Translations under genes and position numbers: made by a program
The notes under the pieces: generated by a model
Told to the model about the DNA's origin: nothing
Databases searched by the model: none
The model's input: the letters and a program-made list of their open reading frames with translations, nothing else
Source: a virus
DNA length: 37,070 bases
IMG/VR virus record: IMGVR_UViG_3300012920_000108
Location: 1 to 37,070 of that record
Strand: one strand, 5' to 3'
Shown: piece by piece, positions 5,077-37,070 of the stretch
Position numbering within the stretch: position 1 is the first letter of the stretch
How the letters are laid out: every line of letters starts with the position of its first letter

Positions 5077-7258
5077 CAAGATCACTTATATCCCATTTCA
5101 GATCTAAATCAATGGAATAAATTTTGTTGTGTTTCTTGTACTGAGAAGTAACTGGTCTGATAGTAGAATCAGCTTTGCAAGCTTCCTCTAGCGACTGCAT
5201 ACTGCGACGCATAAACTCTGTATTCACGGTTAAGTTATTTAATGGTTTACCACCATTCAATTCTGTTACAAGGGACATGAAGTCTGTAGCAGATCCTCTC
5301 CATACAGTTCTTGTAGAATCGTAGTCTCTAAATTTACGAACAAAAAATTCTACTGTTTCTATTAAAATAGACCTTGTTGAATTAGCAAAAGCAACTTCTT
5401 CTATCTCAGGATCAATGAAAGATTTAATACCAAACCTTGAGTCGCCCTTTATGTGTTTAGGAACTTTAAATTCGTGTAGTAACCATTGAGCAAAGTATGG
5501 AAGTTCTTCAGCTATCTTTGATTCTATAATAGTATTACTGGCTTCTTCGACTCCTAACAACTTAGCAAAGTTGCTTTCTGCCTTATCGGAAATACGTAGT
5601 GCTAGTATTTTATCTCTGTTACTTGAGTCCAAAGCAGGAATAACTGATAAACTGGTAGGGTCCATGTTTAAAGACATGATTACACGACCTGCCCAACTAA
5701 TAGTTATAGTGTCTTCAAACTTTGCTTGATACTCAATTCTTGGGTTAGCGGTTGCTTTTTTAATCAACTCAGTGGCTCTACGTTGTTCTGCAAAAGAAGC
5801 AGCCGAAGTTGTATCATCAATAACCCAAGCAGCTACCCTACCTAATTCTTTGTTGAACTTACTATCACCACTAAGGTAATCTGAAGCATCAGCAAACCCA
5901 CCAAGCAAACCACCAATCAATTTGTTAGATAACAAAGACTTACCTTTGTTTGTTGGTCCTACTAATATAAGAGCGTGTCCTTGTTTAGACTCTTTCTCAT
6001 AGACAGCAGAATAAATTCTTTGTAGCCACCCATAAAAATAATCGAGAGATTCTTTATCTTTAAAGAATTGAGTGAGCCATGTATCTATAAACTTCCATTT
6101 ACTTTTGTCAGCATCTCCCGCAGGTTGTACTGGTTTAAGTGTACTGGTGTTTAAAATTTTATTTGGTCCTGACTCCACTATTTGTCTTTCATCAAATATG
6201 ATAGGGGCCACTTCATCTATTCTACTATTTTGTTGGATTATTAAAATAGCGTTTTCTACTTCGGTCAAAGGTTGTCCATTTCTTGTAGTTCTGAAACCTG
6301 CTTGTCGCAGTTCTAGTTTAAGTTGATCTTTATCTAAGGTACATGCTTTCCCGTTTATAAAAGTGTAGAAAGTCTTACCTGTAAACCAATATTTCCCTAC
6401 AAGATAATCTAGTTTTGTATTCTCAAACTCATCTACAAAAGCTTGCCCAAATATTTCTTTCCAAGTTAAGAATCCTTTACCTGCCCTGTCTGAGTAACAG
6501 ATCATACCATCTAGAGTCACCTGACATCCATCTCTTTCTATACCATCATCTATCCAGAATAATGGTCCTCTATCCCCCACATTAAATCCTGAAGTCCATC
6601 TACCTTTGTATTTCTCGTTCTCACGAACTTCTTTTTCAATAACATCTAATGGGATACTTAAGGCAGTTGGTGCTTGTGGTGGGTTTTTAATACTAGTTTT
6701 TATTAATAACTTTGTATAAAAGTCTTTCTTTAGTCTTTTTTCAGTAACATGAATAATATCACCTAGAAACCAATATTTAGCTGCGTCTAAACAGGACTCA
6801 TCAAAACCTGCAAACATACGCCTGACTCTTAACTTGTCTGCTAGTGCTTTGGCAAAAGCATTAAACATTCTGTAGTCTATCAGGAGCTTTCCTTCAAACT
6901 CCCATATAAGTCTGATACCACCAGAAGGAGTTCTAGTTATAACAGTTGGTGGTAACGGTCCACATTTAGAAAGTACTTCTTCTACTACCTTATCCCAATC
7001 AGGGTCAATATTATCATACTCAACAACGAAGCCATACATTGCTTCTACTTTGTTACCACCCCTTTTAGATATTCTTGTAGAGGCTATTGTTCCTTCATTC
7101 AGAGAATAGAATACGTAATCTGTATCTGGATGATTCATCCATGCCCTACGCTTTTCTTTATCTGTAAACTTCTTCGGAGTTTTATTAAATGTTGTTAGTG
7201 TTTCGCTAGTGTTAGTGTGGTGGTCTGATAGGTTTTTTAAGTATCTATAATGGTGCAT
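5069..7258 (-). CDS. Primase-helicase (AEP-like primase plus SF3/D5-type helicase)
   Basis: The 729-aa protein starts at the ATG one base after the polymerase stop; an earlier start at 7297 would overlap polA. The N-terminal half has an AEP-like pattern: acidic pair VVEYDN (E80, D82), TPSGGIRLIWEF (~110-121) and DESCLDAAKYWFLGD (~153-167). The C-terminal half carries a helicase ATPase: Walker A GPTNKGKS (434-441) and Walker B AWVIDD (D481, D482). It should unwind and prime at the phage fork, working with the neighbouring PolA. The primase part is degenerate, so its activity is less certain than the helicase. Confidence 0.75.
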   Translation of the reverse strand: MHHYRYLKNLSDHHTNTSETLTTFNKTPKKFTDKEKRRAWMNHPDTDYVFYSLNEGTIASTRISKRGGNKVEAMYGFVVEYDNIDPDWDKVVEEVLSKCGPLPPTVITRTPSGGIRLIWEFEGKLLIDYRMFNAFAKALADKLRVRRMFAGFDESCLDAAKYWFLGDIIHVTEKRLKKDFYTKLLIKTSIKNPPQAPTALSIPLDVIEKEVRENEKYKGRWTSGFNVGDRGPLFWIDDGIERDGCQVTLDGMICYSDRAGKGFLTWKEIFGQAFVDEFENTKLDYLVGKYWFTGKTFYTFINGKACTLDKDQLKLELRQAGFRTTRNGQPLTEVENAILIIQQNSRIDEVAPIIFDERQIVESGPNKILNTSTLKPVQPAGDADKSKWKFIDTWLTQFFKDKESLDYFYGWLQRIYSAVYEKESKQGHALILVGPTNKGKSLLSNKLIGGLLGGFADASDYLSGDSKFNKELGRVAAWVIDDTTSAASFAEQRRATELIKKATANPRIEYQAKFEDTITISWAGRVIMSLNMDPTSLSVIPALDSSNRDKILALRISDKAESNFAKLLGVEEASNTIIESKIAEELPYFAQWLLHEFKVPKHIKGDSRFGIKSFIDPEIEEVAFANSTRSILIETVEFFVRKFRDYDSTRTVWRGSATDFMSLVTELNGGKPLNNLTVNTEFMRRSMQSLEEACKADSTIRPVTSQYKKHNKIYSIDLDLKWDISDLDD

Positions 7259-9038: not shown

Positions 9039-9075
9039 GTCCACCTACGTGAAAACCTATGACACGTAGGTGGAC
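9039..9075. promoter_or_regulatory. 13-bp perfect inverted repeat upstream of polA
   Basis: GTCCACCTACGTG (9039-9051) and CACGTAGGTGGAC (9063-9075) form a perfect hairpin with an 11-nt loop. It lies in the 92-nt leader between the coiled-coil gene and the polA ATG, with no T-run on the minus strand. It is therefore more likely a translational, attenuation or RNA-processing site than a simple terminator. Confidence 0.75.
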
Positions 9076-9115
9076 TCCCCCATTTCGTATTGCGGAACTC
9101 CTACCGCTTACGAGA

Positions 9116-9316
9116 TTATATTAGTTCAGGCTGAGATGCCTTTAGCACCTTTAAGTTTTTGATCTGAGCTTCAAAAGCTTCAGTTGTTGCTATCATCTTA
9201 GTATCAGAGGATTCTAACTCTTCTATTTTAGAAGTGATTTCTTCTCTAATTTTGCGTACTTGCTCAAGTTCACTTTCAAGATGTGCTATCTTTATATCTA
9301 GATCAATATTACTCAT
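9116..9316 (-). CDS. Small coiled-coil protein (66 aa)
   Basis: The product is almost entirely a heptad-rich helix (IAHLESELEQVRKIREEI, SKIEELESSD), with a second helix near the C-terminus. Its start lies 2 nt from the end of the upstream gene, so it is in the same transcript. No catalytic motif is visible. It may be a scaffold or partner for the preceding DNA-binding candidate or for the polymerase; function unknown. Confidence 0.6.
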   Translation of the reverse strand: MSNIDLDIKIAHLESELEQVRKIREEITSKIEELESSDTKMIATTEAFEAQIKNLKVLKASQPELI

Positions 9317-14662: not shown

Positions 14663-16432
14663 ATGACGCAGACCTTACGTATATATGAACCAAGGATAGA
14701 TGAGAAGACATCTAAGATGGATGTAGGTGGGATGAGTATTGATGCAACAAACACAGTGACAGGTTTATTGTTTGGGTTAGCCAATCATAAAAGTAATAAG
14801 GCAAGAGAGTATTACTTCTGGAGATTGTGTGACGAACTATGGAACCATGATGAACTTCCTGAACCTCTGATGGTTAAGCATCCTTGGGCAGAGAGTATGA
14901 TACAAGCTGTTATACAAAATAAATATGTATCTATTGGTGGTGCTGCTTCATCTGGTAAGTCACACACTATGGCTGCATGGGGAATCCTGAACTGGTTAGC
15001 TGCTCCAAGAGATACTCTTGTTCTACTAACATCGACTACGTTACGTGAAGCGAGAAAAAGAATATGGGGTTCTGTTATTAGTTTGTTAACAGTGTTAGAT
15101 GGCGCACCATTTAAGATAAGAGATTCTATTGGTAACGTCGCTTACGTAAATGAGAATGGGACTCTCATAGAGAAAGCTGGTTTGAGTTTGATTGCAGCAG
15201 AACGTAGTAAGACTAGAGAAGCTGTCGGTAAGTTTATTGGAATCAAACAAAAGAATGTTATTTTGATTGCAGACGAGCTTTCAGAACTATCAACAGCAAT
15301 TCTTCAAGCAGGTCTATCTAACTTATCAAAGAACCCATCATTTAGTTTAGTTGGTTTATCAAACCCCGCTTCTCGTTGGGATGCTTTTGGTGAGTGGAGT
15401 GAACCAGCACAAGGCTGGGATTCTATTGATCCAAATACAGAAGATAGTTGGAAAACAAAATGGGGAGGTCTTTACAAAAGATATGATGGGGAAAGATCTC
15501 CTAACATACTCGCTGGTGAAACAATCTACCCTTGGCTCCCTACAGAAGAAAAGATAGAGGAAGACAAAGCACTGCTGGGGCAAGAGAGTAGAGGTTACTA
15601 TCGAATGGTACGTGCTGTATTCTTTGACTCTGATGAAACCGATGGAGTTTATACAGACGCTGAATTAGTTAAGTCAGGAGCTATGGGTAGCATAGAATGG
15701 GAGGGAACTCCTACACCCATTGCTGGTTGTGACCCCGCATTTACTAACGGTGGTGACCGAACAATACTATATACTGGTTATGTTGGGTATGATAAGTCTG
15801 GTCAATTTGTTTGCCAGCTTGATGAAGCAATAGCTCTTACTGACGATGCCACCAACAAAGCCGTCCCCCGATCTTATCAGATTGTTCAGCAGATAAAGGA
15901 CGAGTGCAAGAAGAGGAAGATACTCCCAGCCAACTTAGGAATCGACTCCACAGGTGCAGGTAGTCCTTTGGCTGATATTCTTGCTGCTGAGTTTGGTGAT
16001 GATATTCTTCGTGTTTCATTTGGTGGAAAAGCTTCTGACAAACGAGTCAGCACTAATAGTAAACTGGTAGGTAATGAACTGTATGTCAATCGAGTTACTG
16101 AACTTTGGTTTGTGGGTAAAGAATTCTGTAGAACTAACCAGTTATTTGGTATTACTAATGAGTTAGCTCAAGAAGTTGTAGGTCGTAAGTACGATATGGT
16201 CAAAGGTTCTACCCTTAGAATGAAGCTAGAATCCAAGCCAGATTATAAAAATCGACTAGGAAAATCTCCTGACTTAGCTGATGCTGCTTTTATCTGTATT
16301 GATGTCGCAAGGCAACGTCATGGTCTTGTAGCTGTAGAGCCTCTTGATTTAGGAGACAAGGTACAGGGATCAAGGCGCAGGAGGTCTATAAAACAGCTTA
16401 CAGGCGTACTAACAAATCAACCTCTCGCTTAG
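14663..16432 (+). CDS. terL: Terminase large subunit (589 aa)
   Basis: The N-terminal packaging ATPase has Walker A GGAASSGKS (92-100) and Walker B ILIADE (199-204). The C-terminal nuclease shows the three acidic sites GCDPAF (D356), GIDSTG (D427) and SPDLADAAF (D536, D539), as in RNase H-like terminase nucleases. It pumps DNA into the procapsid and cuts the concatemer. It is the first gene of the plus-strand block and its ATG has no strong ribosome binding site. The next genes encode large virion-type proteins rather than a portal. Confidence 0.93.
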   Translation: MTQTLRIYEPRIDEKTSKMDVGGMSIDATNTVTGLLFGLANHKSNKAREYYFWRLCDELWNHDELPEPLMVKHPWAESMIQAVIQNKYVSIGGAASSGKSHTMAAWGILNWLAAPRDTLVLLTSTTLREARKRIWGSVISLLTVLDGAPFKIRDSIGNVAYVNENGTLIEKAGLSLIAAERSKTREAVGKFIGIKQKNVILIADELSELSTAILQAGLSNLSKNPSFSLVGLSNPASRWDAFGEWSEPAQGWDSIDPNTEDSWKTKWGGLYKRYDGERSPNILAGETIYPWLPTEEKIEEDKALLGQESRGYYRMVRAVFFDSDETDGVYTDAELVKSGAMGSIEWEGTPTPIAGCDPAFTNGGDRTILYTGYVGYDKSGQFVCQLDEAIALTDDATNKAVPRSYQIVQQIKDECKKRKILPANLGIDSTGAGSPLADILAAEFGDDILRVSFGGKASDKRVSTNSKLVGNELYVNRVTELWFVGKEFCRTNQLFGITNELAQEVVGRKYDMVKGSTLRMKLESKPDYKNRLGKSPDLADAAFICIDVARQRHGLVAVEPLDLGDKVQGSRRRRSIKQLTGVLTNQPLA

Positions 16433-33912: not shown

Positions 33913-34086
33913 TTATTGTTTGTTGTATTCGTATAGTTCGTTGATTGAATAGTTAGTTGGATCATCATTTAGATAACAATCATCATATCTATTTTGAATC
34001 TGTAAGTCATTAGACCCACATACACATTGCCGTCCATCATTACTGCGACCGCAATCATTGCAAATATATAGGGGTTCATCTGACAT
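33913..34086 (-). CDS. Zinc-ribbon-like small protein (57 aa)
   Basis: Translation of an otherwise empty stretch gives an ATG frame with YICNDCGRSNDGRQCVCGSN. This is C-x2-C then C-x-C, a probable zinc knuckle, followed by an acidic, Tyr/Asn-rich tail ending YEYNKQ. It is the first gene of the right-hand minus operon and its ATG lies 4 nt from a long leader hairpin. A small transcription or translation regulator is possible. Confidence 0.65.
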   Translation of the reverse strand: MSDEPLYICNDCGRSNDGRQCVCGSNDLQIQNRYDDCYLNDDPTNYSINELYEYNKQ

Positions 34087-34090
34087 CTTT

Positions 34091-34173
34091 ATTTTCTAGG
34101 CTTCGGGATTTACTTTTTTGCTTCATATGGCCCAAAGGGCGAAGCAAAAAATACAGCCCGAAGAATAGAAAAT
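34091..34173 (-). promoter_or_regulatory. Long nested leader hairpin before the zinc-ribbon gene
   Basis: Four nested stems share one axis: ATTTTCTA/TAGAAAAT (34091-34098, 34166-34173), CTTCGGG/CCCGAAG (34101-34107, 34157-34163), TTTTTTGCTTC/GAAGCAAAAAA (34114-34124, 34141-34151), and GCCC/GGGC around AAA (34130-34140). That is 30 paired positions in 83 nt. It lies wholly between the predicted transcription start (~34186) and the ATG at 34086. Confidence 0.85.
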
Positions 34174-34192
34174 TGAGGTCAGCTATGAACCC

Positions 34193-34382: not shown

Positions 34383-34925
34383 TTATTTGTTTTTGTTCTT
34401 ACGTGCGCCTTTGGGTCTATTGGCTTGAGTTTTGGCGTAGCTGAATGTGGTAGCTGATGCGCTTCCGTAATACAATGCTCTTCCAGTAACGGTTCCTGCT
34501 TGCGTATCGGGTAAGCCACCGTTAAAGAACTCACGAGCTTCTTTAACCTGAGGGTCAGTTGCGACTCCACCTACGACGGGTCGGGCGTAATGAGTAGCTT
34601 TTGGGTTGCTTATGTTCTGACGAGGGCGAATTGCCGTGTTAGCGTAGTAGGTGACTGCGCCCGTGCCGTCAGCAACGTGTTTCCAAGCAGTCAACGCTAA
34701 TGCGGAGCCTTCGACTGACTCATTTGCATAGTCTCGAAGTGCCTTCTCAACTTGGACCGCATTGTCCATGTCAACTTCGGCTTCCTTCAAGATTTCCTCG
34801 TGAATGTCAGGGTGAGGCCAGAACATTATAGTAAGGTCCATGTTGAAGGTTACTTCGACTGAGTGTGTTGTGCAGTTAGTTGCAGTTAACGCTGATGCTG
34901 GAGTGTCATTAGTTATTTTTTTCAT
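34383..34925 (-). CDS. GC-rich orphan protein (180 aa)
   Basis: A single gene with its own terminator, set apart from both neighbours. Base use differs: I count 29/60 and 37/60 G+C in two 60-nt rows of it, against roughly one third in the giant gene. The sequence (THSVEVTFNMDLTIMFWPHP, later TGRALYYGSASATTFSYAKT) mixes beta-like and Ala/Gly/Thr-rich segments and ends in a Lys/Arg/Asn tail (RPKGARKNKNK). No family recognised. Composition suggests separate acquisition or a highly expressed product. Confidence 0.6.
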   Translation of the reverse strand: MKKITNDTPASALTATNCTTHSVEVTFNMDLTIMFWPHPDIHEEILKEAEVDMDNAVQVEKALRDYANESVEGSALALTAWKHVADGTGAVTYYANTAIRPRQNISNPKATHYARPVVGGVATDPQVKEAREFFNGGLPDTQAGTVTGRALYYGSASATTFSYAKTQANRPKGARKNKNK

Positions 34926-34946: not shown

Positions 34947-35819
34947 TATATATCTTTTGATATAAATACAGGAAAGGTGCGATCTGATTTGTCAAATCTG
35001 TGATTTTACAAATCAAGGTCAATAGTGCGTGTATAAAACTTTATACAAAAGCACTATCATCAATATAAAGATGTTTTAGTGTTCCGTTAGAATTTGATAT
35101 AAATTTTAGAGGGGCAAACTCGAAAGAGATTCATTCAAACAGGTGTCGATGGGAAAGTGAGGACACCTGTTTGAATGAATCTCGTTAATTGTTATTTGTT
35201 ATTTTCAGAGTAGCCGAAGAGGCTGGTCTGAAAATAACAAATAACACTAGAAGGGGCGGGTCGTTTAACTACCATTACACATTGAGTTTTATGCCAAATT
35301 CTAACGGAACATTAAAACATCCTAACTGAGAGCATCCTTATAATGTCCGACGTGTGGGATCGATCCAAGGGTCGCAACTTTTCTCAAAGTTGCCCCCTTG
35401 TATCGATAGGTGAGTCTAAGTCAAAAGACGTACGGTCGCTTCCACGGAGTGGTGAGATTATTACGAAGCCCGAAATAAACTAAAAAAATCCCCACTGAAT
35501 ATCTAAGACTGGTCGTGCTTCAAAACGACAACGGAGAGTTTTGAAATTCAAAACTTGTTTTGAATTCTTCCGAAAACGTCTGGGGATTTTTTCCAAGTAT
35601 TCGTTGAAGAGGCGCAAAGATCGCAACTGATCTAAATACATTTTACAAATGCCCTTGTAAAATTTATTTCGATTAGTTGCTCTTTGCTGGTCCAACTCGT
35701 TGGACCTTGACTCAAGGTTGATGTCACTACATGCATGCACTTCAATATAAATCGGTGTTCATCACCGAGTGGACGAAATTGCCAGTGACTCCTTAGTTCA
35801 TGAAAGGTAACCAATTTCG
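34947..35819. ncRNA. Large structured noncoding locus (~870 nt), candidate ornate RNA or structured DNA element
   Basis: No convincing gene lies in 34926-36072. A chain of inverted repeats fills most of it: 34985-34992/35008-35015 (8 bp); 35022-35028/35051-35057 with inner 35031-35036/35041-35046; a closed domain 35070-35321 (27-bp arms) holding two long hairpins; 35359-35407 (20 bp in three helices, loop TCTC, which is GAGA on the minus strand); 35483-35494/35581-35592 (12 bp) around TTCAAAAC-type repeats; 35614-35687 with inner 35640-35663 (9 bp); 35689-35706; 35753-35767; 35774-35781/35812-35819. Size, phage context and helix density recall GOLLD and ROOL RNAs, but no sequence match is claimed. 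The strand is undecided; the GNRA-type loop favours minus. A replication origin or packaging element is the main alternative. Confidence 0.55.
35070..35321. repeat. 252-nt nested inverted-repeat domain with 27-bp closing arms
   Basis: Arms 35070-35096 and 35295-35321 match over 27 nt with one G:T-type mismatch. Inside are a perfect 22-bp hairpin (35126-35147/35162-35183, 14-nt loop) and a perfect 18-bp hairpin (35191-35208/35228-35245) capped by AGCC/GGCT. The three helices make a multibranch junction. Confidence 0.92.
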
Positions 35820-35821
35820 CA

Positions 35822-35905
35822 ACACTCAGGACTCAGGCTACAGGGTTCAGGGTACATCAACCTGAAGTCTGACGAAATGAACCATGAATCATGGATCAGG
35901 GTTCC
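35822..35905. repeat. CAGGGT-type dispersed repeat block
   Basis: It contains CTCAGGCTACAGGGTTCAGG, the 12-mer CTGAAGTCTGAC (35862-35873) shared with 30795-30806 and 30818-30829, and a CCATGA-A-TCATGG palindrome (35882-35894). Related degenerate blocks occur near 27219-27240, 27324-27341, 30751-30830 and 37016-37055. Confidence 0.6.
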
Positions 35906-36072
35906 TTGACCGTGCATAAGTCATTTCCCTTTATATCGAGAATGAGCGGTGTATAAGGATTTATTGTGCATACGCCACCCCCGTATAGGGTAATTTTTTT
36001 GACAGCGAACTGTATATATAGAGGGCTGTAAGAAAAAATTTGACTTATTTTTGCCCGCTCATATTAGTAGCT

Positions 36073-36419: not shown

Positions 36420-36476
36420 TCTAATACAGTTTATGATATATGTAAATACATTGTATATGTCATAAACTGTATTAGA
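36420..36476. promoter_or_regulatory. 17-bp perfect inverted repeat before the last gene
   Basis: TCTAATACAGTTTATGA (36420-36436) and TCATAAACTGTATTAGA (36460-36476) are perfect arms around a 23-nt AT-rich spacer, itself containing ATGTA/TACAT. It lies 75 nt upstream of the 36551 start in a 229-nt gene-free gap. It suits an operator for a dimeric protein or a strong hairpin; no T-run follows on either side. Confidence 0.8.
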
Positions 36477-36550: not shown

Positions 36551-37015
36551 ATGGAAAACCTATTAGAAAAAACTGAAAGAAGACCTATCCCCAAAACAAA
36601 ATATGAAATAGACCAACATGGGTTTGTTTATCGCAATGGAAACCGTTTACGATCTCAATATAAAAGTGGCCGTTGGTACGTAGTATTAACTAAAAAATCT
36701 GGTAAGCGTTTAACCGTAGACACCGAAAGACTAGCTGAATTGATTTTCAGCGACGAGAATCCTCCAGAATTGACGAGAACCATGATTGAGGATCAGATGA
36801 AGGCTCGACAGGTTCCAGAGTATCCTCGCTACTCTGTGACCGAATATGGGGCTATCTACTGTATGGTCCCTCCCAAGAGGGGTCCAAACTCAGGGAAGAT
36901 GTATCTTGTCAGAGAAAAAACAAATACAGCAGGTAAGCAATACGTAGCCCTGTACGACTACGAAGGCTGCCGTCGTTATGTACAAGTTCAACATATCGTG
37001 GACTCTGTATGGTGA
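36551..37015 (+). CDS. Duplicated NUMOD4-like DNA-binding protein (154 aa)
   Basis: Two similar modules: residues ~18-66 (YEIDQHGFVYRNGNRLRS, then GRWYVVLTKKSGKRLTV and AELIF) and ~94-154 (YSVTEYGAIYCMVPPKRG, then KQYVALYDYEGCRRYVQV and HIVDSVW). The Y-x-hydrophobic-x3-G-x-hydrophobic-Y opening followed by a strand-rich part and a final helix resembles the NUMOD4-type module at the front of HNH homing endonucleases. No HNH residues are present. It may be a free-standing DNA-binding regulator acting at the nearby palindromes. Confidence 0.5.
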   Translation: MENLLEKTERRPIPKTKYEIDQHGFVYRNGNRLRSQYKSGRWYVVLTKKSGKRLTVDTERLAELIFSDENPPELTRTMIEDQMKARQVPEYPRYSVTEYGAIYCMVPPKRGPNSGKMYLVREKTNTAGKQYVALYDYEGCRRYVQVQHIVDSVW

Positions 37016-37054
37016 TCCCTGATTCATGATTCCTGACTCAAGGTACAGGGATCA
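37013..37054 (+). promoter_or_regulatory. Hairpin over the last stop codon, in a CAGGG-type repeat
   Basis: TGATCCCTG (37013-37021) and CAGGGATCA (37046-37054) are perfect 9-bp arms with a 24-nt loop. The first arm includes the stop codon. It could be a terminator-like or stabilising hairpin, but no T-run follows within the window. Confidence 0.5.
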
Positions 37055-37070
37055 GATTCACCCTTGTAGA

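Follow-up and report, generated by a model that had tools for sequence, protein, structure and literature searches.

Between two divergent gene blocks, the phage fragment analysed here (the window, 37,070 nt) carries an element of about 0.9 kb, at 34,979-35,869 on the plus strand, in which long helices follow one another end to end. Its structure lies well above chance, and the comparison with related phages supports a conserved structured element with compensatory changes. On balance we marginally favour a large structured non-coding RNA of a new family, read from the plus strand (left to right) and probably acting in trans. The first-pass annotation had described a chain of long inverted repeats of ~870 nt at 34947-35819, free of any credible ORF; the repeat list, the comparison of the fold with shuffled sequences and a 200-nt scan all bear this out. 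The element is slightly wider than first described, its helices running from 34981 to 35869, as 35709-35724 pairs with 35854-35869.

Inverted repeats of 26, 25, 26, 14, 17, 13 and 12 nt, with small loops, are placed end to end along the element, and a 34-nt pair (35070-35103/35288-35321, 91% complementary), which surrounds two other repeats, tops the inverted-repeat list of the whole window. Folded as the plus strand, the segment 34980-35600 reaches -231.3 kcal/mol versus a mean of -142.7 for 20 shuffles (z -27.6) or of -141.8 for 40 shuffles (z -12.9), the z score thus varying with the shuffle sample. The opposite strand gives a similar value (z -12.7 with 40 shuffles) because the repeats are near-perfect. 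When the 37 kb were scanned in 200-nt windows, 35101-35300 came top (z -11.9) and 35001-35200 next (z -11.5); for the 358 windows lying outside the element, the mean z was -0.67, the standard deviation 1.55 and the minimum -7.9. Two minus-strand ORFs lie inside the element (35480-35740, 86 aa, and 35632-35814, 60 aa) and neither is credible. An ORF conserved across homologues had been named beforehand as evidence against a structured RNA; tblastn found nothing matching the 86-aa frame in the syntenic relatives. The parts of the element are as follows.

34979..35869, plus strand: whole structured non-coding element, candidate large RNA, based on repeats and folding, with homologous pieces in three relatives (G001, G002 and G019)
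34981-34992 with 35008-35020, plus strand: helix A, with one bulged A, starting inside the conserved GCGATCTG at 34979-34986
35022-35028 with 35051-35057, plus strand: helix B, from the core alignment
35060..35069, plus strand: conserved unpaired linker TCAATATAAA, from motif comparison
35070-35103 with 35288-35321, plus strand: helix C, 34 nt, enclosing helices D and E
35126..35183, plus strand: helix D, 22 perfect pairs and a 14-nt loop
35190..35246, plus strand: helix E, 26-nt arms and a 5-nt loop
35359..35407, plus strand: helix F, with an inner hairpin at 35374-35393
35483..35592, plus strand: helix G, AAAAAATCCCCA/TGGGGATTTTTT flanking an 86-nt loop with small hairpins
35614..35687, plus strand: helix H, a long stem with its core at 35623-35648 paired with 35655-35680
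35689..35706, plus strand: hairpin I, GGTCCAAC/GTTGGACC
35709-35724 with 35854-35869, plus strand: helix M, surrounding the 3' module
35753..35825, plus strand: 3' module, made of hairpin K (35753-35767), AGTGGA, stem L (35774-35781 with 35812-35819) and CAACAC

In the predicted RNA, helices A, B and C with the conserved linker would thus form a 5' domain and AGTGGA-stem-CAACAC a 3' module, to which extension helices are added that vary. CACTTCAATATAAA, from the linker region, is found again at 35738-35751.

Among the genes of the window, which covers part of a phage genome, are those for a family A DNA polymerase, a DUF2800/PD-(D/E)XK exonuclease, a helicase and a terminase. Hundreds of IMG/VR contigs carry a related terminase, while none was found in 50,697 named phage records, and since the longer relatives measure ~50-63 kb the window must represent a partial genome. 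The element sits between a minus-strand block starting at 34925 and the plus-strand gene 36073. We collected this locus from 19 records by using gene 36073 as an anchor; besides G001, G002 and G019, 12 of the 19 extend 1.5 kb or more upstream of the gene. Both G001 and G002 are syntenic with the window; their identity to it is 94-98% across much of the genome, 89-92% in the sequence directly following the element and 77-79% immediately ahead of the interval 33.9-36.0 kb. In blastn this interval itself is unaligned to either of them, though the rest largely aligns. It holds other genes in the relatives (other small genes in G001 and G002), and the genes neighbouring the element, which have no known domains, vary among close phages. 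G019, a more distant relative (terminase 90%), has its own chain of long helices (z -10.4) and has in common with the window only the 3' module, not the 5' domain. The chain is missing at the locus in most of the clade members examined, including the close relative G004, and the relatives without it retain gene 36073 and the minus-strand block. Some others, such as G063 and G045, hold shorter structured stretches there, whose relation to the element is not clear. The locus is therefore a variable, optional accessory spot between divergent gene blocks, which argues that the element is optional in the clade and not a fixed origin or packaging site. That close phages differ in the genes next to it suggests exchange by recombination in the flanks.

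The element was found in four genomes only (the window, G001, G002 and G019), and since G001 and G002 are near-copies these amount to about three independent alleles. When the element and its relatives were compared by BLAST with named phage records, nothing matched, and among the terminase-bearing contigs related pieces were found in G001, G002 and G019 only. Pattern scans of IMG/VR with TAGTGTTCYGTTAGAAT and with GTGGACGAA-N-TTCGCAACA returned only the already-known records and chance or coding matches. We judged that a covariance model of the element would add no reach, given the small number of alleles (about three) and the strongly unequal loop lengths.

Several short motifs recur at this locus in other relatives. 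TTCYGTTAGA, spotted by eye and in another arrangement, is found in G053 and G063, and we left it out of the evidence. In the loci L272 and L273 of these two genomes, ~340-760 nt upstream of the gene 36073 homologue, there are further repeats: TCTAACAGAA, which matches the heart of helix C, in both, and TAACNNNTTGAG...CAANGGGTTA in G063. Of the TTCTGTTAGA motif, 9 of the 10 copies within the 255 kb examined fall in the element locus.

The case for conservation comes from two separate parts of the element. In the 5' domain, GCGATCTG of helix A is common to the window, G001 and G002, and GCGATCTG, TCAATATAAA, TTCYGTTAGAAT and ATTCTAACRGAACA occur in the same order in the two relatives, at positions that fit helices A, B and C of the window. 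Plain sequence alignment of this domain scores 88, versus a mean of 52 and a maximum of 76.5 in 200 shuffles. Over the core pairs of the three sequences, 98.3% of the cells are paired (2 of the 117 are unpaired, both in G002) and both sides have changed in 7 of the 39 pairs, in an alignment assembled by hand from pieces cut by helix, which favours structure, and with G001 and G002 being near-copies, so that it is essentially one comparison. Neither value was reached in any of 500 shuffles, and slid structures give 0 or 1. Five of the seven double changes are located in helix B (5 of its 7 pairs, 100% paired in the window, G001 and G002). In helix A, 94% of the cells are paired, with one double change and a conserved U-G, and helix C is kept in G001 and G002 with one C-G to U-A change. 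The position of helix D is occupied there by a helix of other sequence, and helix E is not present in these two genomes.

In the 3' module, the connectors AGTGGA and CAACAC and their spacing are identical in G019, and the alignment scores 52.5 versus a shuffled mean of 26.6 and a maximum of 45 (200 shuffles). Stem L shows compensatory double changes in 2 of its 8 pairs between the window and G019, a count that 121 of 500 shuffles equal or exceed, two sequences making this a weak control. G019 also holds a pseudoknot, in which GATCAGCCCCATC/GATGGGGCTGATC (11 perfect pairs) is crossed by TTAAAGAGCAC/GTGCTCTTTAA (13 perfect pairs), whereas 300 shuffles never gave more than 8 pairs. The compensatory changes that the first-pass annotation had proposed to look for in homologues were thus found, in both the core and the 3' module. 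Its suggestion of one folded RNA with several domains holds as regards a structured and conserved element with compensatory changes; the RNA nature of the element is only favoured.

Indeed, RNA is favoured over DNA by the conserved plus-strand G-U pairs and by the pseudoknot in one relative. In the core alignment the plus strand shows G-U at five pairs and A-C at none, and the helices of G019 contain 13 G-U on the plus versus 4 on the minus strand; from these wobble pairs we lean towards a predicted plus-strand RNA. Over the whole elements the asymmetry is indecisive, with 3 wobbles on the plus versus 2 on the minus strand in the window and 2 versus 4 in G001, hence no plus-strand preference, and we dropped it as proof of the strand. 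The base composition is balanced (G+T 0.50 to 0.53). The inverted repeats could instead belong to a structured DNA element, extruding as cruciforms or folding in single-stranded form at an origin, packaging or recombination site. Watson-Crick pairing in the arms is close to complete, wobbles being scarce, and such perfection is unusual for an RNA; this would suit DNA, as would the lack of plus-strand wobble bias in the window and G001, the iteron-like CAGGGTTC/ATCAGGG repeats at 35826-35911 (again at 16342 and 37024) and the placement of the interval between divergent gene blocks. However, we hold this rather unlikely, since an essential origin or packaging site would hardly be expected to be missing from most of the clade members examined, as the chain is, and the locus shows no cumulative GC-skew extreme (the window has its minimum at 14.7 kb and its maximum at 26.6 kb). 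Moreover, a cruciform needs no compensatory drift, no conserved unpaired connectors, no conserved G-U pairs and no pseudoknot. Optional presence, the pseudoknot and the conserved unpaired connectors agree more readily with an RNA than with an origin or packaging site.

A long RNA could also act in cis, as a very long leader or read-through segment steering the flanking operons by antitermination or attenuation. The element does lie directly between two transcription units, and cis-acting structured phage leaders are known. The put sites of HK022, for instance, are structured phage leaders acting in cis, and the element resembles them in having phage hairpins close to an operon start; yet it is far larger and apparently the leader of neither operon. 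Gene 36073 carries its own promoter (TTGACT at 36040, a 16-nt spacer and TATTAG at 36062), directly before the ATG and nearly invariant in the relatives, which argues that the element is not its leader. For the minus-strand block, the G-U evidence points to the opposite strand, and both gene 36073 and that block are kept in relatives without the element. We regard a cis-acting RNA as quite improbable. No good sigma-70 promoter was found upstream of the element, nor an intrinsic terminator at its 3' end. At 12-13 nt before GCGATCTG stand TATAAA (34961) in the window and TATACT in the corresponding place of G001, a lead only.

It is very unlikely that the element has no retained function and owes its self-complementarity to mutation or assembly (quasi-palindrome growth, amplification chimeras). 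The locus is variable, and the L008 contig of one relative begins inside a hairpin of the region; however, separate assemblies contain the same core, in which compensatory changes and conserved unpaired motifs are seen. Least of all do we expect that a ribozyme or an RNA from a mobile element, for example a group I or II intron or HEARO, has remained beside the HNH endonuclease gene (36551-37015, matching PHROG 959 and 6086) that lies ~0.7 kb downstream, since Rfam gave no convincing intron, HEARO or ribozyme match even permissively, no gene is interrupted, and the HNH gene still adjoins gene 36073 in relatives that lack the element, G004 for one.

The Rfam covariance-model search proposed in the first-pass annotation (GOLLD, ROOL and others) found no family. 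The element matches none at the gathering threshold and only generic hairpins at E up to 5; G001 and G019, also at E up to 5, match none, apart from one marginal plastid group II D5 hit in G019 (E 2.9), and ~246 kb of relatives hold no family match at the gathering threshold. The permissive matches (miRNA precursors, snoRNAs) were set aside as generic long-hairpin matches, far below gathering scores. GOLLD and ROOL membership was rejected, as neither covariance model matches the element, G001 or G019. Group I and II introns were rejected for want of an Rfam core match on the element, at a site that is intergenic. HEARO and omega-RNA (PMC9755519), likewise structured RNAs close to an HNH endonuclease gene, differ in that no model matches and the protein here is of the phage type, not IscB/IsrB-type; the association with the HNH gene was also dropped, that gene being kept where the element is absent.

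The comparison with GOLLD and ROOL drawn in the first-pass annotation stands as an analogy and fails as membership. GOLLD is phage-associated, elaborate, modular and over 800 nt long, with a conserved part and variable extensions; one member was first found in a marine metagenome, and it often lies near tRNA islands (PMC12286853). Further traits of GOLLD are its assembly into an RNA-only cage and expression that rises at lysis. The element is likewise large, elaborate, phage-associated and modular, with a more-conserved part and variable extensions, but it lacks an Rfam match, its helices are longer and nearly perfect, and ARAGORN found no tRNA gene in the 37 kb of the window, itself part of a genome. 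ROOL is a large structured RNA, with pseudoknots, that occurs in phages and prophages (PMC12286853); the element resembles it as a large structured phage RNA candidate with a pseudoknot (in G019) and differs in having neither an Rfam match nor a tRNA island. The functions of both are still open (PMC12286853), and the element may work like either without being a member of them.

Other structured spots and repeats were seen in the window. A second, small element at 34083-34175 is a hairpin of three tiers that includes a T6/A6 stem and a conserved tip; G003 and G004 keep it, with both-sided changes in 4 of 30 pairs. Its counterparts are listed here.

L009 7575-7685, minus strand: counterpart of the 34083-34175 hairpin
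L008 760-866, minus strand: counterpart of the 34083-34175 hairpin

L009 holds at 6755-6855 (minus strand) a hairpin of the same layout and of different sequence. Degenerate iteron-like repeats (CAGGGTTCAGGGT, CATGAATCATGGATCAGGG) occur at 16342-16372, 35826-35911 and 37024-37060; they are concentrated in the stretch from the element to the promoter of gene 36073, and several relatives have member-specific variants upstream of that gene. Gene 36073 encodes a very basic protein of 82 aa (96-98% identity in close relatives), and its -10 hexamer ends 5 nt upstream of the ATG, so that the gene seems to have little or no leader. Between gene 36073 and the HNH gene lies an almost perfect, AT-rich hairpin of 26 bp (36420-36476, z -8.9), and a similar AT-rich inverted repeat adjoins the G019 copy of gene 36073. 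Two adjacent hairpins, one with a 12-bp stem TCCACCTACGTG, are found at 9040-9120 beside the DNA polymerase gene (z -7.7).

Returning to the plus-strand RNA that we favour, we infer its RNA nature, its strand, its transcription, the part played by recombination and its action in trans. The contents of the accessory spot, which differ between close phages, would probably be exchanged by recombination in the conserved flanks. The pairing is kept while the letters change, which suggests action in trans through shape, and the predicted RNA would probably serve as a scaffold, decoy or sponge. Its partner might be a host or phage protein or RNA, during host takeover; this target and an early timing are guesses.

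Very few phage RNAs of such size are known, and this candidate would escape both protein-based annotation and Rfam. As an optional and variable family in an uncultivated clade, it would supply closely related phages that naturally differ in having or lacking the RNA, a help in testing what such RNAs do. A further, rather doubtful proposal is that it represents a new class of large modular phage RNA, with alleles shuffled as cassettes in the accessory spot and diversifying while their shape is kept. Such a molecule would act by shape in counter-defence or host takeover, and could be the RNA counterpart of the variable early anti-defence proteins.
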